Origin: Streptococcus gwangjuense
GTDB taxonomy: Bacteria > Bacillota > Bacilli > Lactobacillales > Streptococcaceae
Direction of reading: 5' to 3'
Assembly: GCF_003627155.1 (NCBI RefSeq)
Contig: NZ_CP032621.1
Span: 62,001-126,000, forward strand
DNA: 64,000 nt
The translations under genes and the position numbers were made by a program. The notes beneath the pieces were generated by a model that was given only the letters and a program-made list of their open reading frames with translations, had not been told where the DNA came from and did not search any database. Below are positions 17,013 through 20,756 of this stretch, in pieces (position 1 is the stretch's first letter; each line of letters begins with the position of its first letter).

Positions 17013-17405
17013 ATGCAGAAACGAGAAAATAGAAAACGCTATATACAAAAATTGATACGACTAACACCAGAGGAAGATCGTCAAATTAAAACGGCGATGG
17101 CCCAAATGGGAGTTCCATCTTTTCAATACTATGCGAAGAATCAACTGGTACAAGGGAAGGTGGTTCAAATTGATTTTTCTGAATTGAAAGACCTTCGAGT
17201 TGCTATCAATCGAGTGGGCACGAACATCAACCAAATTGCCAAGCATGCTAACGAAAATCAAGGGGTTACGACAGAGGAAGTAGCACAAGTTATTGACTAT
17301 CTATCTGAGTTGAAAGAGATGGTAGCTGCCAAACTTTCTAGCGCAGAGAAGAAAAGTTTACAGGAGCGAAAAGTAAAAACTATAAGGACGTATGACGAAT
17401 GGTAG
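17013..17405 (+). CDS. mobC: MobC-like relaxosome accessory protein
   Basis: The 130-residue basic protein has a ribbon-helix-helix-like start (RYIQKLIRLTPEEDRQIKTA) and the conserved MobC segment (LRVAINRVGTNINQIAKHAN). MobC proteins bind oriT, help the relaxase melt the nick region, and often repress the mob promoter. It overlaps the relaxase start by seven bases and follows the candidate oriT, as expected. GAGAAAGAGG precedes the ATG at a rather long distance. Confidence 0.9.
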   Translation: MQKRENRKRYIQKLIRLTPEEDRQIKTAMAQMGVPSFQYYAKNQLVQGKVVQIDFSELKDLRVAINRVGTNINQIAKHANENQGVTTEEVAQVIDYLSELKEMVAAKLSSAEKKSLQERKVKTIRTYDEW

Positions 17406-19033
17406 TAATCAAAGCACCCAAACAAATTAAAACTCCTTCCAATTTAAAAATAGCTGTACGCTATATTCTGAATGAAGCGAAAACACTTGTGTCAGAAACC
17501 GCAGAAAGTGATCTTGATTTTCCTCTTGTCTATCATAATGGTGAACTTCAAATGAAGCTAGTATCTGGCAATGGGATCTCTGATTTTAGCGTAGCAGATG
17601 AGGAAATGGTTATGACAAAATTGGCTGCAGCCTTTAAAAAAGGAGATGATGACTTGAAAGAATTATCTTCAGGAAAACAAGTATTGGCCCATCACATTAT
17701 CCAGTCTTTTTCTCCAGATGATAACTTGACTCCTGAGCAGGTTCATGAAATTGGCCGTCAAACGATGTTAGAATTGACAGGTGGAAATTATGAGTTTGTG
17801 ATCGCAACCCACACGGATAAAGATCATCTTCATAACCATATCATACTTAATACCACCAATACCTCAACGCTCAAGAAATTTCGTTGGGAAAAGAAAACCT
17901 TGAAAAATTTGAGAGGCATTTCGGACAAACATGCGGCACGATACGGCGCTAAAATTATTGAGCCTACTATGAAAAATTCTTATACAAAGTATTCTGCTTG
18001 GCGGAGACAAAATAATTATCGGTTTGAAATTAAGGAGCGTCTGGATTTTCTTCTGAAGCACTCTTTGTCGTTAGAAGATTTCAAACAAAAGTCAGCTGCG
18101 CTTAATCTTCAGATTGATTTCTCTGGAAAATTTGTGAAGTATAAATTGCTCGATCAGCCCCAACAAAGAAATGTCCGAGATGATACATTATCGAAGAAAG
18201 GACTCTATTCTCTTGAAAAAATAAAAGAGAGAATTTCTAAGAATCAGTTAGTTTTTGATGTGGAGGAATTGAAAGAACAATACCAAGAATCAAAAGAAAA
18301 AACGGCAAATGATTTTGAATTGAAATTGGAAGTGGAATCCTGGCAGGTCGAGCAAGAAAGCAAGCAAGGCATTTACGTGCAGATGGATATGGGAGCTTTA
18401 AATAGTGGTACAATTTTAATACCTTCTCATAAAGTTGATAAAAATGAGGATGGAAATTATACCATCTATATCAAAGAGAAAGACTATTTTTATTTTCTCA
18501 ATCCTGATCAATCACAAAAAAATCGGTACATGATGGGTTTGACTGTCGCAAGACAATTGGCCAAACAAAATGGTGAGACAGTCGTAACTAAAAATGCTCA
18601 AATTTCCTCTATACGTGAGCTGATTAAGGAATATAATTTCTTAGTCGAGCACGGCGTGACAGATGGAGCACAATTTCAACATTTGGAAAATCGTTTTAAT
18701 GAAAAGATTGAGATTACCCTGGAGGAATTAAGACAACTAGATGAGCGACTTGGACGTTATCATAAAATTGAAGGAGCACTTTTAGCCATCCAGAAATCTC
18801 CAGAAAATAGTCTTGTAGCGGTACAACTATTGGATGATTTAGGAGTTCCAAAAGATATGGGACTGGAAGATGTCAGTCAACTGATCAAACAATTCCAAAT
18901 TGAAAAAGGAGCCTTACAAGAGTTCTTTGATGATACATTAAAACATTACACAGATTATAGAGATGTTAAGGAGCACGTGCGTAGTCGTGAAGAGAAAGTT
19001 GACCGACGTTTTGAAGATGAAAAAACCTTGTAA
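17399..19033 (+). CDS. mobA: MOBP-type relaxase (MobA/VirD2-like)
   Basis: Relaxases nick oriT and stay bound to the 5' end of the transferred strand. The 544-residue product has the family's N-terminal nuclease: motif III HTDKDHLHNHIILN with metal-binding His138, His145 and His147, and a candidate catalytic Tyr in VRYILNEAKT near residue 22. Other conserved parts are VLAHHIIQSF and the GRQTMLELTGG stretch. The C-terminal half is charged and helical and probably contacts the secretion system. It overlaps mobC and is followed 49 bases later by the transposase gene. Confidence 0.95.
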   Translation: MVVIKAPKQIKTPSNLKIAVRYILNEAKTLVSETAESDLDFPLVYHNGELQMKLVSGNGISDFSVADEEMVMTKLAAAFKKGDDDLKELSSGKQVLAHHIIQSFSPDDNLTPEQVHEIGRQTMLELTGGNYEFVIATHTDKDHLHNHIILNTTNTSTLKKFRWEKKTLKNLRGISDKHAARYGAKIIEPTMKNSYTKYSAWRRQNNYRFEIKERLDFLLKHSLSLEDFKQKSAALNLQIDFSGKFVKYKLLDQPQQRNVRDDTLSKKGLYSLEKIKERISKNQLVFDVEELKEQYQESKEKTANDFELKLEVESWQVEQESKQGIYVQMDMGALNSGTILIPSHKVDKNEDGNYTIYIKEKDYFYFLNPDQSQKNRYMMGLTVARQLAKQNGETVVTKNAQISSIRELIKEYNFLVEHGVTDGAQFQHLENRFNEKIEITLEELRQLDERLGRYHKIEGALLAIQKSPENSLVAVQLLDDLGVPKDMGLEDVSQLIKQFQIEKGALQEFFDDTLKHYTDYRDVKEHVRSREEKVDRRFEDEKTL

Positions 19034-19082: not shown

Positions 19083-20375
19083 ATGTTTAGATTTGATGAA
19101 AAAGAATTTGTCGCAGAACTAGATCGCAAACGTAAGCAGCAATTCCTGAAGCGAGTAAGAGATTATGACGAGCAGATAGCTCCCACCATGAGACGGAGGG
19201 GATATAAACGGATAGATAGTACAGAGAGGACAGTTGTTTTTACATTTGGAGAGATGACCTTTTCTAGGAATCGCTGGCGAAAGGGAAAGAAAACTTGTTA
19301 TCCTGTTGATGAGTGGCTAGGCTTAGAAAAGTATATGCGTTATTCTCCTGAGTTGATTTTTCACATGGCAAAACACGCTTCCGTTTTATCCTACCGTGAA
19401 GTTTGTCGAACAGTTAAGATGGCTTATCGCCTAGAGATAACAAAGGATGCTGTGTTGAAGTCTGTAAAAATGGCAGGTAGACTCTTTTCAGAGAGGGAAC
19501 GTTATCGGCTGTTTAGAGGTGATGAGCAACCGAAAAAAATACAGGTAGATAAAATCTACCTGGAGGGAGATGGTGTGCTCGTCAAGACAACATCAAGCAA
19601 TGATGAACGACACAATACAGACTTAGCCCATTTCCTGATTCATACTGGAGCGAAGAAGGTTGGTAATAATCGGTATGTACTAGAGAATAAACATGAGATT
19701 ATCCATACAAGCCATGAACAAGCAAAGGAAGAATTGATAGACTATCTCTGCAATCATTTTGAAATCACTGATCGAACTCTTCTTATCACTAACTCGGACA
19801 ATGGTAAAGGATATTCTCGCAGAATATTTCAAGAAATTAAGAAGGTCCTACGGATTAAACGTCATGAGCATTTCTGGGATGCTTATCATGTCAATGAAGA
19901 ACTTAAAAGATTCCTGAAGCCGTACCCATCTACACTACTTGATCTTGCTTTTAGGGCCATCAAAAATCATCAGAAGAACCTGCTTCAGACCGTACTAGAT
20001 ACAGTTGAATCTCTCACAGAAAGTCAAGAAGCTCTTGATAATTTTTACAATTTTCGTAAGAAATTATTAAGAAATTTCTGTGACACTAGACCACCTAAAC
20101 TTAGAGGGTTATCCTCACGTGGTATCGGAGTAATGGAGAGTCAGCACCGAAAGGTTACTTACCGTATGAAACATCGAGGGATGTATTGGTCCATCGAAGG
20201 GGCTTGTACTATGTCCAGAATGATACTCCTTGAACGAATTGATCAGCTATACAATCTATTTTTTGGATCTTGGAGACAAGAGTATGAAGAATTTAGGGAT
20301 ACGGGACTAGGTGCAGGATTTCGTATTAACCATAGGCCGCACAAAGCTGTTATCAGAAAAAGAGGGCATAAATAA
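19083..20375 (+). CDS. DDE transposase, ISLre2/UPF0236-like, of a TnGBS-type element
   Basis: The 430-residue product looks like an ISLre2/UPF0236-type transposase: Arg/Lys-rich N-terminus, MTFSRNRWRKGKKTCYPVDEWLG, then candidate catalytic acids in YLEGDGVLVK (Asp), LLITNSDNGKGYS (Asp) and GVMESQHRKVTYRMK (Glu). Such enzymes cut and join DNA at short terminal repeats. It is last in the element and co-directional with the relaxase, 49 bases after it, which suggests it belongs to the ICE as in TnGBS rather than to a separate IS; no terminal repeats are obvious between the two genes. The start has only a weak AGAGAG site. The length is complete. Confidence 0.85.
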   Translation: MFRFDEKEFVAELDRKRKQQFLKRVRDYDEQIAPTMRRRGYKRIDSTERTVVFTFGEMTFSRNRWRKGKKTCYPVDEWLGLEKYMRYSPELIFHMAKHASVLSYREVCRTVKMAYRLEITKDAVLKSVKMAGRLFSERERYRLFRGDEQPKKIQVDKIYLEGDGVLVKTTSSNDERHNTDLAHFLIHTGAKKVGNNRYVLENKHEIIHTSHEQAKEELIDYLCNHFEITDRTLLITNSDNGKGYSRRIFQEIKKVLRIKRHEHFWDAYHVNEELKRFLKPYPSTLLDLAFRAIKNHQKNLLQTVLDTVESLTESQEALDNFYNFRKKLLRNFCDTRPPKLRGLSSRGIGVMESQHRKVTYRMKHRGMYWSIEGACTMSRMILLERIDQLYNLFFGSWRQEYEEFRDTGLGAGFRINHRPHKAVIRKRGHK

Positions 20376-20395
20376 TACAAAAAGGCAGACAAAAG

Positions 20396-20428
20396 CCTCT
20401 AAAAAAAGATTTTTTTAGAGGTGTTTTT
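20396..20428 (+). terminator. terminator after the transposase gene
   Basis: CCTCTAAAAAAA (20396-20407) and TTTTTTTAGAGG (20410-20421) are perfect 12-base complements around GA, followed by TGTTTTTGT. It would stop transcripts leaving the element, and may also lie within the element terminus. Confidence 0.7.
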
Positions 20429-20450
20429 GTCATGTTTTTATACAAAATAG

Positions 20451-20479
20451 TTGCTTTTTTGCCTAATGTGTGTTACAAT
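20451..20479 (+). promoter_or_regulatory. plus-strand promoter of the convergent small-RNA locus
   Basis: TTGCTT, a 17-base spacer, and TACAAT with an upstream TGT (extended -10). The predicted start is near 20486. It faces the minus-strand promoter at 20574-20603. Confidence 0.7.
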
Positions 20480-20490
20480 AATAGAGTAAA

Positions 20491-20567
20491 TAAAAACGAA
20501 AAAGGTGTAGAAGCAGCAACTTCTACACCACCGATTAAGACAAACACACACTTTGCTTAATCAGTCA
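20491..20567 (-). ncRNA. candidate small antisense RNA of about 75 nt with its own terminator
   Basis: A near-consensus minus-strand promoter (20574-20603) predicts a start near 20567. The RNA holds the GATTAAG stem and then the 10-bp CTTCTACACC-type hairpin, directly followed on this strand by TTTTTCGTTTTTA, a textbook intrinsic terminator. The size and shape resemble antitoxin RNAs of type I toxin systems, but I found no Fst-like toxin ORF beside it. Confidence 0.6.
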
Positions 20568-20573
20568 AACAAT

Positions 20574-20603
20574 ATTGTAGCATAAATAGTGCAATATAGT
20601 CAA
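20574..20603 (-). promoter_or_regulatory. minus-strand promoter of the small-RNA locus
   Basis: Read on the minus strand: TTGACT, an 18-base spacer, and TACAAT preceded by TGC (extended -10). This is among the best promoter matches in the window. Confidence 0.75.
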
Positions 20604-20606
20604 GGG

Positions 20607-20641
20607 CTGGGGTAAAGTGAGGAACTTTTTCCAGTTTTTTT
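20607..20641 (+). terminator. candidate terminator of the plus-strand small RNA
   Basis: CTGG/CCAG ends plus an inner AAAG/CTTT pairing with internal mismatches, followed by seven T at 20635-20641. It is weaker than the minus-strand terminator. Confidence 0.5.
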
Positions 20642-20727
20642 GTCTGAAAAATCTCGCTTTCTTATTGAGTTATAAGGATATTTGATTATTCCCAAAAATT
20701 TAGACACAAACAAATCTTTCAATTCCC

Positions 20728-20756
20728 TTGCAAAAATGAAGAAAGTGTGATAACAT
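20728..20756 (+). promoter_or_regulatory. rpmB promoter and leader with two palindromes
   Basis: TTGCAA, a 17-base spacer, and TAACAT with TGA before it. The short leader contains the palindromes GTGCTAGCAC (about 20769-20778) and TATTAGATCTAATA (20788-20801), the latter touching the AGGAGG ribosome binding site, so leader folding could influence L28 translation. Confidence 0.6.

Follow-up and report, generated by a model that had tools for sequence, protein, structure and literature searches.

How an integrated element silences a plasmid-type replication gene and then activates it after excision is an unsettled question. It is raised by a short locus at positions 20451–20641 of the window, the 64,000-nucleotide stretch of Streptococcus gwangjuense DNA analysed here (contig NZ_CP032621.1, positions 62,001–126,000 of the forward strand), where two promoters face each other across shared hairpins. 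The initial annotation, made from the sequence alone, had read this arrangement as a pair of complementary small RNAs resembling plasmid copy-control RNAs, a likeness that sequence comparison has borne out. We propose, with a probability of about 0.8, that the pair forms an antisense-RNA-controlled attenuator for the plasmid-like replication of a TnGBS-type element: integration would part promoter and attenuator from repA, circularisation would reunite them, and the antisense RNA would set copy number. If true, this would be a protein-free answer for a widespread group of streptococcal ICEs.

A predicted complementary RNA pair inside a TnGBS-type element

The plus and minus promoters and both hairpins of the initial annotation are present in the sequence, together with a structure that it had not named, T1, which supplies the end of the plus RNA of about 155 nt that it had predicted:

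20451–20479, plus strand: P(+), putative promoter of the leader RNA (TTGCTT 20451–20456, 17 nt, TACAAT 20474–20479, TG-extended)
20574–20603, minus strand: P(−), putative promoter of the antisense RNA (TTGACT 20603–20598, 18 nt, TACAAT 20579–20574, TG-extended), detected by scan
20486–20641, plus strand: leader RNA, about 155 nt if stopped at T1, both ends predicted
20493–20567, minus strand: antisense RNA, about 75 nt with two hairpins, both ends predicted (folding and covariance model R1)
20504–20529, minus strand: H1, predicted intrinsic terminator of the antisense RNA, found by scan as a hairpin and U-tract (20529–20504)
20533–20566, plus strand: S2, predicted kissing hairpin, whose 3′ side (20552–20566) is the putative antiterminator strand
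20545–20551, plus strand: 7-nt hypervariable loop, CACACAC on this strand and GUGUGUG in the antisense RNA, predicted to determine specificity
20607–20641, plus strand: T1, predicted attenuator terminator of the leader, whose 5′ arm has two alternative partners, the T1 3′ arm and the 3′ side of S2

The S2 stem (GATTAAG-A-CAAA / TTTG-CTTAATC, 20533–20562) has 11 bp, one bulge and the 7-nt loop. Both promoters had been termed consensus; P(−) deserves the name and was found by the scan, whereas P(+) scored 8/12, below detection in the consensus scan of the window, and for it the label was overstated. Its RNA start is predicted at about 20486, and its place is conserved in the alignment of related loci. 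Across 53 loci, with one shuffle per locus, the mean best score was 10.1 in the P(+) region against 8.3 in shuffled sequence, and 10.9 against 7.4 in the P(−) region. Since the top-scoring P(+) candidate differs from the aligned site in the window's own group (8 loci), L079, L114 and L119, the assignment of P(+) draws mainly on the alignment. Scanning the locus gave one promoter-like site against 1.9 expected in shuffles, which is not significant by itself, and four terminator-like sites against 0.2 expected.

For the 75-nt minus RNA the predicted folding energy is −31.3 kcal/mol, compared with −12.7 for shuffled sequences (z = −7.2, 0/200), and the leader up to the T1 5′ arm also folds better than its shuffles (z = −6.6, 0/200). 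Preservation of the stems by compensatory changes in relatives had been set beforehand as a test, and the stems passed it: in a MAFFT alignment of 51 loci, 50 of them distinct, that was not fitted to the structure, we counted 126 double-change cells for the minus-RNA structure against 35 ± 4.5 in shuffles and 26–40 when slid, bearing in mind that the loci are related by descent, so that shuffle and permutation controls, here and below, overstate significance. For the same 50 distinct loci, 92.3% of cells were paired (80.3 in shuffles) and the covariation score was 0.346 (0.145 in shuffles, 0.06–0.13 when slid). The count of pairs changed on both sides, 16 of 25 against 11.9 ± 1.6 in shuffles and 10–15 when the partner was slid, is uninformative by itself, whereas double-change cells and score separate well. 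H1 is more stable as minus RNA in 46 of the 50 distinct loci and less stable in three (G-U 85 vs 4), and T1 is more stable as plus RNA in 49 and less stable in one (G-U 131 vs 13); this bias argues that both RNAs exist and matter. Comparison of the loci thus supports two structured RNAs, each on its own strand, with covarying stems.

No Rfam family reached its gathering score anywhere in the window, and a known RNA family was rejected accordingly. A search for a complementary target elsewhere in the element returned just exact matches of 11 to ~13 bases, none of them convincing.

The initial annotation had suspected the end of an ICE near 20435, upstream of the locus. The true end lies at 20711, which places the locus inside the element, between the transposase and the right inverted repeat:

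1–20711: part of the element within the window; the left end lies before the window (at about 12089 in L024)
17399–19033, plus strand: relaxase (PF03432)
19083–20375, plus strand: ISLre2 (TnGBS-type) transposase (NF033529, 1.4e-64; PF06782)
20645–20711: right end, with a terminal inverted repeat at about 20687–20711 and an inner block at about 20645–20680 complementary to the T2 5′ arm
20712–20720: 9-bp target duplication flanking the element

The element is about 28.6 kb long and is flanked by the 9-bp duplication AAATCTTTC. Copies at different places diverge directly after GACACAAAC or GACACATAC, corresponding to window position 20711, and a direct repeat of at least 9 bp was found in eight of the nine elements with both ends, the ninth having an N in its flank. 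The end lies 16 bp upstream of the −35 box (20728–20733) of the host neighbour, presumably rpmB to judge from its translation. Besides relaxase and transposase, the element encodes MobC and, near its left end, a RepA_N protein (PF06970, 7.2e-16; the profile was matched for the window's element alone, and the other elements by similarity to its protein). A transposase beside an end, the spacing to the −35 box, the duplication, and the conjugation and RepA_N genes together identify a TnGBS-type ICE. Members of this group are reported to share the ISLre2-type transposase, a duplication of 8–9 bp and RepA_N replication as a circle, the circles replicating like plasmids (PMC3942029, PMC4701971), and to insert in one orientation, 15–17 bp upstream of the −35 boxes of host promoters (PMC3942029). 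They differ from the present element in that the available text of these reports describes no antisense RNA or attenuator for them (PMC3942029, PMC4701971). Given the right end at 20711, the duplication and the ISLre2 transposase beside the locus, we conclude that the RNA locus belongs to, and travels with, the element. Between the transposase and P(+) lies an AT-rich hairpin (20395–20422) with T-runs on both sides, likely a two-way terminator insulating the leader from transposase transcription.

A predicted switch between T1 and S2

The S2 3′ side, which reads TTTGCTTAATCAGTC in the window's subfamily, is the complement of the T1 5′ arm, in many loci GACTGAAGCAAAG, and the two change together between subfamilies. 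In the mechanism we propose, the P(+) leader would terminate at T1 unless the S2 3′ side captures the T1 5′ arm. The minus RNA, whose whole length is complementary to the initial stretch of the leader, would begin pairing through the 7-nt loop, and this pairing would cover the antiterminator strand and force T1 to form. We infer each of its steps, namely transcription, attenuation, the effects on RepA and copy number, and incompatibility, from the features described here.

Folding is consistent with such a switch. When leaders were cut before the T1 3′ arm, the antiterminator fold was predicted in 50 of 53 loci, the S2 hairpin being kept instead in L095, L097 and L108; when the region covered by the antisense RNA was masked, T1 formed in 53 of 53. 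The arms of a locus's own S2 and T1 bind at −13.7 kcal/mol, compared with −11.3 ± 0.37 when permuted (0/5000; 28 distinct), although for a given S2 arm an average of 19% of foreign T1 arms bind better than its own. Further streptococcal modules gave the antiterminator in 19 of 20, L150 being without it by count. By folding, the leader thus holds a mutually exclusive antiterminator and intrinsic terminator, and by sequence an RNA predicted on the opposite strand is complementary to its 5′ part. In L114, L103 and their relatives, a second copy of CTCGGT lies 3′ of T1 and is complementary to the S2 5′ side; it may add further pairing in the read-through RNA.

The scheme recalls the pT181 attenuator, in which the leader holds an exclusive antiterminator and terminator, and a complementary antisense RNA contacts the loop first, covers the antiterminator and forces termination (PMC4878617). 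The likeness lies in the scheme and not in sequence kinship: here the leader sits at the opposite end of the integrated element from the replication gene, and the two are separated by a second terminator and the inverted-repeat junction. The staphylococcal RepA_N plasmids pSK41, pSK1 and pSA564 have the same type of initiator, a two-stem-loop antisense RNA of less than 100 nt that is complementary to the leader of repA, and two exclusive leader structures, and incompatibility has been shown within this group (PMC8129170, PMC5703833). In pSK41 and pSA564, however, the OFF structure also sequesters the ribosome site of repA (PMC8129170, PMC5703833), whereas here T1 precedes the element's end and no ribosome site occurs until after IRR, IRL and T2; for this reason we file the RNA pair as a variant and not as a pSK41/pSA564 member. 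By analogy, the mechanism would be like the pT181 and pSK41 controls, yet split across the element's ends.

Similar RNA controls are reported to be apparently absent from RepA_N plasmids of other genera (PMC5703833); the present locus would be such a control in streptococcal ICEs. In the library searched, no paper combined 'TnGBS' with 'antisense RNA', though earlier mentions elsewhere may exist, and in a wider search, judged by titles and the starts of abstracts, we recognised no description of such a system. The main texts of dRNA-seq studies of S. agalactiae and S. pyogenes make no mention of TnGBS.

The left end, repA and a natural circle

In integrated elements, just the element's end lies beyond T1, and repA is found at the far end. 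The leader would thus be parted from repA, which has no recognisable promoter of its own. Two genes at the left end bear on this:

L024 12198–12566, before the window: first left-end gene, about 122 aa, Asp/Glu-rich by eye
L024 12872–13996, before the window: repA (RepA_N)

All nine elements with both ends begin on the left with IRL and a terminator, T2, directly followed by a ribosome site and a gene. A repA-like gene lies further in on the same strand, with identity down to 30% in G023a and a broken copy in G077. Because other genes precede repA in most integrated elements, repA may not be the sole target. Between the left end and the repA-like gene, no sigma-A-like site better than those in shuffles was found in any of the nine. 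The first left-end gene has 172 homologues and no Pfam domain; among the 120 homologues listed, those with a named organism are all from Streptococcus, and we regard it as a candidate early gene of the circular form. A defence role for this gene and its three neighbours was considered and dropped, PADLOC giving one hit at E 0.02.

We suggest that T2 shields the integrated repA from host transcription; in folding of host read-in transcripts, T2 was kept in nine of nine elements. In the circle, the ends would abut and the P(+) transcript would enter the left-end operon with repA, where the right-repeat transcript, by base-pairing with the left-repeat transcript, would capture the T2 5′ arm. The inner right repeat is predicted to bind the T2 5′ arm of its own element better than those of others (−25.2 vs −17.1 kcal/mol, 6 distinct elements), and 4 of 720 permutations, the true one included, were as good. 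Folding the ends as separate strands abolished T2 in five of the nine elements (three if near-identical pairs count once) and partly in one, T2 being kept in three. In this model the junction may antiterminate T2 through repeat pairing, which is the least certain step of the mechanism because the long inverted repeats could serve the transposase alone. A terminator near one end that shields element genes from host transcription is also reported for Tn916, where expression after excision needs antitermination, most likely by an RNA acting in cis (PMC11658703). The Tn916 element canT is a processive RNA element (PMC11658703), whereas antitermination at T2 is proposed to occur by pairing of the inverted-repeat transcripts.

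A natural circle has the arrangement that the model predicts. The only plasmid record with a match, the circular 41.6-kb NZ_CP046625.1 of S. ruminicola, carries in order the transposase, P(+), H1, S2, T1, IRR, 3 bases, IRL, T2, a 56-aa ORF and repA, the last being annotated as replication initiator protein A. In this one circle, a replication gene does lie 3′ of the leader. For the T2 5′ arm, the predicted pairing probability is 0.855 with the IRR side, compared with 0.01 for its own 3′ arm. Just 3 bases separate the repeats, fewer than the 6–10 bp reported for TnGBS circles (PMC3942029). Phage records gave no match.

Distribution, rival readings and the variable loop

We surveyed genomes at one per species. 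A DNA search of 147 Streptococcus genomes gave a match in 19, of which those in L018 and L019 are not the RNA locus. In the remaining matched genomes, the locus adjoins an ISLre2-like transposase (broken in a few) and the chromosomal neighbour varies: it is the presumed rpmB in L001, L002, L004 and L005, and other genes elsewhere where readable. In L018 (G060), which is also at rpmB, only the last 38 bases of the query match, near the element's right end, and the RNA module is missing; this element is apparently decayed or different.

The covariance search across streptococci suggested in the initial annotation was run with R1, the model of the minus RNA, and found matches in 47 of 284 Streptococcus genomes. 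The transposase lies just upstream in 35 of the 40 R1 places taken with wide flanks, the others being L104 (a 34-residue remnant), L108, L118, L122 and L129. Conversely, 81 of the 284 genomes contain the transposase, 37 of them without an R1 match. We sampled 20 R1-negative transposases by hand, one each from 19 of the 37 genomes plus a second transposase of the window genome, and found a module of the same layout downstream in all 20. Applied to these 20 stretches alone, R1 scored 16 at 31–47 bits and three at 14–16 bits; the stricter filters of the genus scan had therefore missed them. The window genome's second ISLre2-type transposase (L148, G000:C1:1694700-1695700) is followed by a divergent module with a long kissing loop, nearly identical in G084 (L153).

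Across the order, R1 matched in 15 of 395 genomes, six of them outside Streptococcus (28–37 bits) and without a transposase within ~1.5 kb; five of these six resemble lone terminators, whereas in L136 there is also a second stem with some likeness to S2. L122/L141 was rejected as a member at 27.6 bits and without a transposase. In the order, 79 of 246 genomes carry an ISLre2 transposase (31 over the cut-off), and we checked downstream of 20 of the transposases outside Streptococcus, two of these stretches being shortened by contig ends. A module detector recognised all 20 streptococcal modules from which it had been built and none of these 20; by eye, 17 lack a module, L185 and L187 are doubtful, and L186 is a look-alike. 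L186 (G355, from another family of the order) has facing promoters, both stems and a CTGGCAC loop, folds into an antiterminator that includes the loop, and belongs with L188 to a TnGBS-like element whose transposase and relaxase are 45% and 44% identical to those of the window. A restriction of the RNA family to Streptococcus was dropped as a claim, the wide scans having been stricter and R1 having missed this look-alike. Presence of the module at the relaxase-linked L186 and its absence at the 17 others suggest that it accompanies the conjugative element rather than the transposase family.

These data bear on what the attenuator acts upon. A homologue of the first left-end gene (~122 aa) stands directly after T2 in eight of nine elements, with a ribosome site and no promoter, and could be the main target in place of repA; it is missing from G136 and also from the natural circle, in which T2 is followed by the 56-aa ORF and repA, and we consider this target unlikely. 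Slightly less likely still is a role in transposition, in which read-through past T1 would cross the right repeat and aid or hinder the transposase, with the antisense RNA adding dependence on copy number. The module does lie between transposase and right repeat and is found at each of the 20 further sampled streptococcal transposases. However, 17 of the 20 ISLre2 transposases outside Streptococcus show none by detector or eye, the one clear exception, L186, is relaxase-linked (L185 and L187 being doubtful), and the leader of the natural circle would run into repA.

The Fst layout likewise has facing promoters and small RNAs of comparable size, and the initial annotation had noted a likeness to type I antitoxins. 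This likeness did not hold up, and a toxin–antitoxin of the Fst kind is hardly credible here: five ORFs of at least 20 aa touch the region but none is contained in either RNA, two minus-strand GTG ORFs extend past the minus-RNA terminator, and the leader is conserved as a structure with covarying stems. It is also very improbable, if less extremely so, that P(+) is an outward promoter maintaining expression of the adjacent host gene, here rpmB, and that the antisense RNA dampens this. Read-through at T1 would enter that gene, and TnGBS inserts in one orientation upstream of host promoters (PMC3942029); yet the element stops 16 bp short of the −35 box, leaving the host promoter intact, such a role calls for the reverse of a terminator at the end, and neither the loop variability nor the T1/S2 switch would be explained.

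The seven bases of the S2 loop differ even among near-identical loci whose arms are well conserved, and the two elements of genome G023 carry AACGGAC and GTAGTGT. Among close loci in nine groups picked by hand, variable columns made up 31 of 63 in the loop and 296 of 1946 elsewhere (odds ratio 5.4, p = 6e-10). In thirteen groups, which include two with long, barely varying atypical loops, the counts were 34 of 118 and 429 of 2834 (odds ratio 2.3, p = 2e-4), group H2 having been dropped because the search pattern did not match it. In both tests the columns are not independent of relatedness. Such hypervariability is expected if the loop decides which antisense RNA fits which leader. Incompatibility between elements would probably be loop-specific, with loop variability as its one indirect sign, and the loop would then be a readable code for which elements are compatible in one cell.

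Co-resident elements are of both kinds. The two elements in each of G125 and G023 have differing loops and share high identity mainly over ~1.7 kb at the right end (~96%), the shared pieces elsewhere being shorter or more divergent. G113, G210, G218 and G221 each hold two same-loop copies, 99.9–100% identical over 4.3–15.7 kb. With both kinds occurring, co-residence neither proves nor disproves incompatibility. A bolder, tentative reading, to which we give somewhat less than even odds, joins two parts: the loop as an RNA identity tag for superinfection immunity, and the joined repeats as an RNA antiterminator peculiar to the circle. If true, the constant antisense RNA of an integrated element would shut the leader of an incoming same-loop circle at T1 and prevent its establishment, a circle with a different loop would escape, which would drive loop diversification, and replication would be tied to excision with no need of a protein regulator. 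In a further module subfamily (L149, L154, L165 and L166), the kissing loop reads TTGGNNC, and just its two N bases vary between elements.
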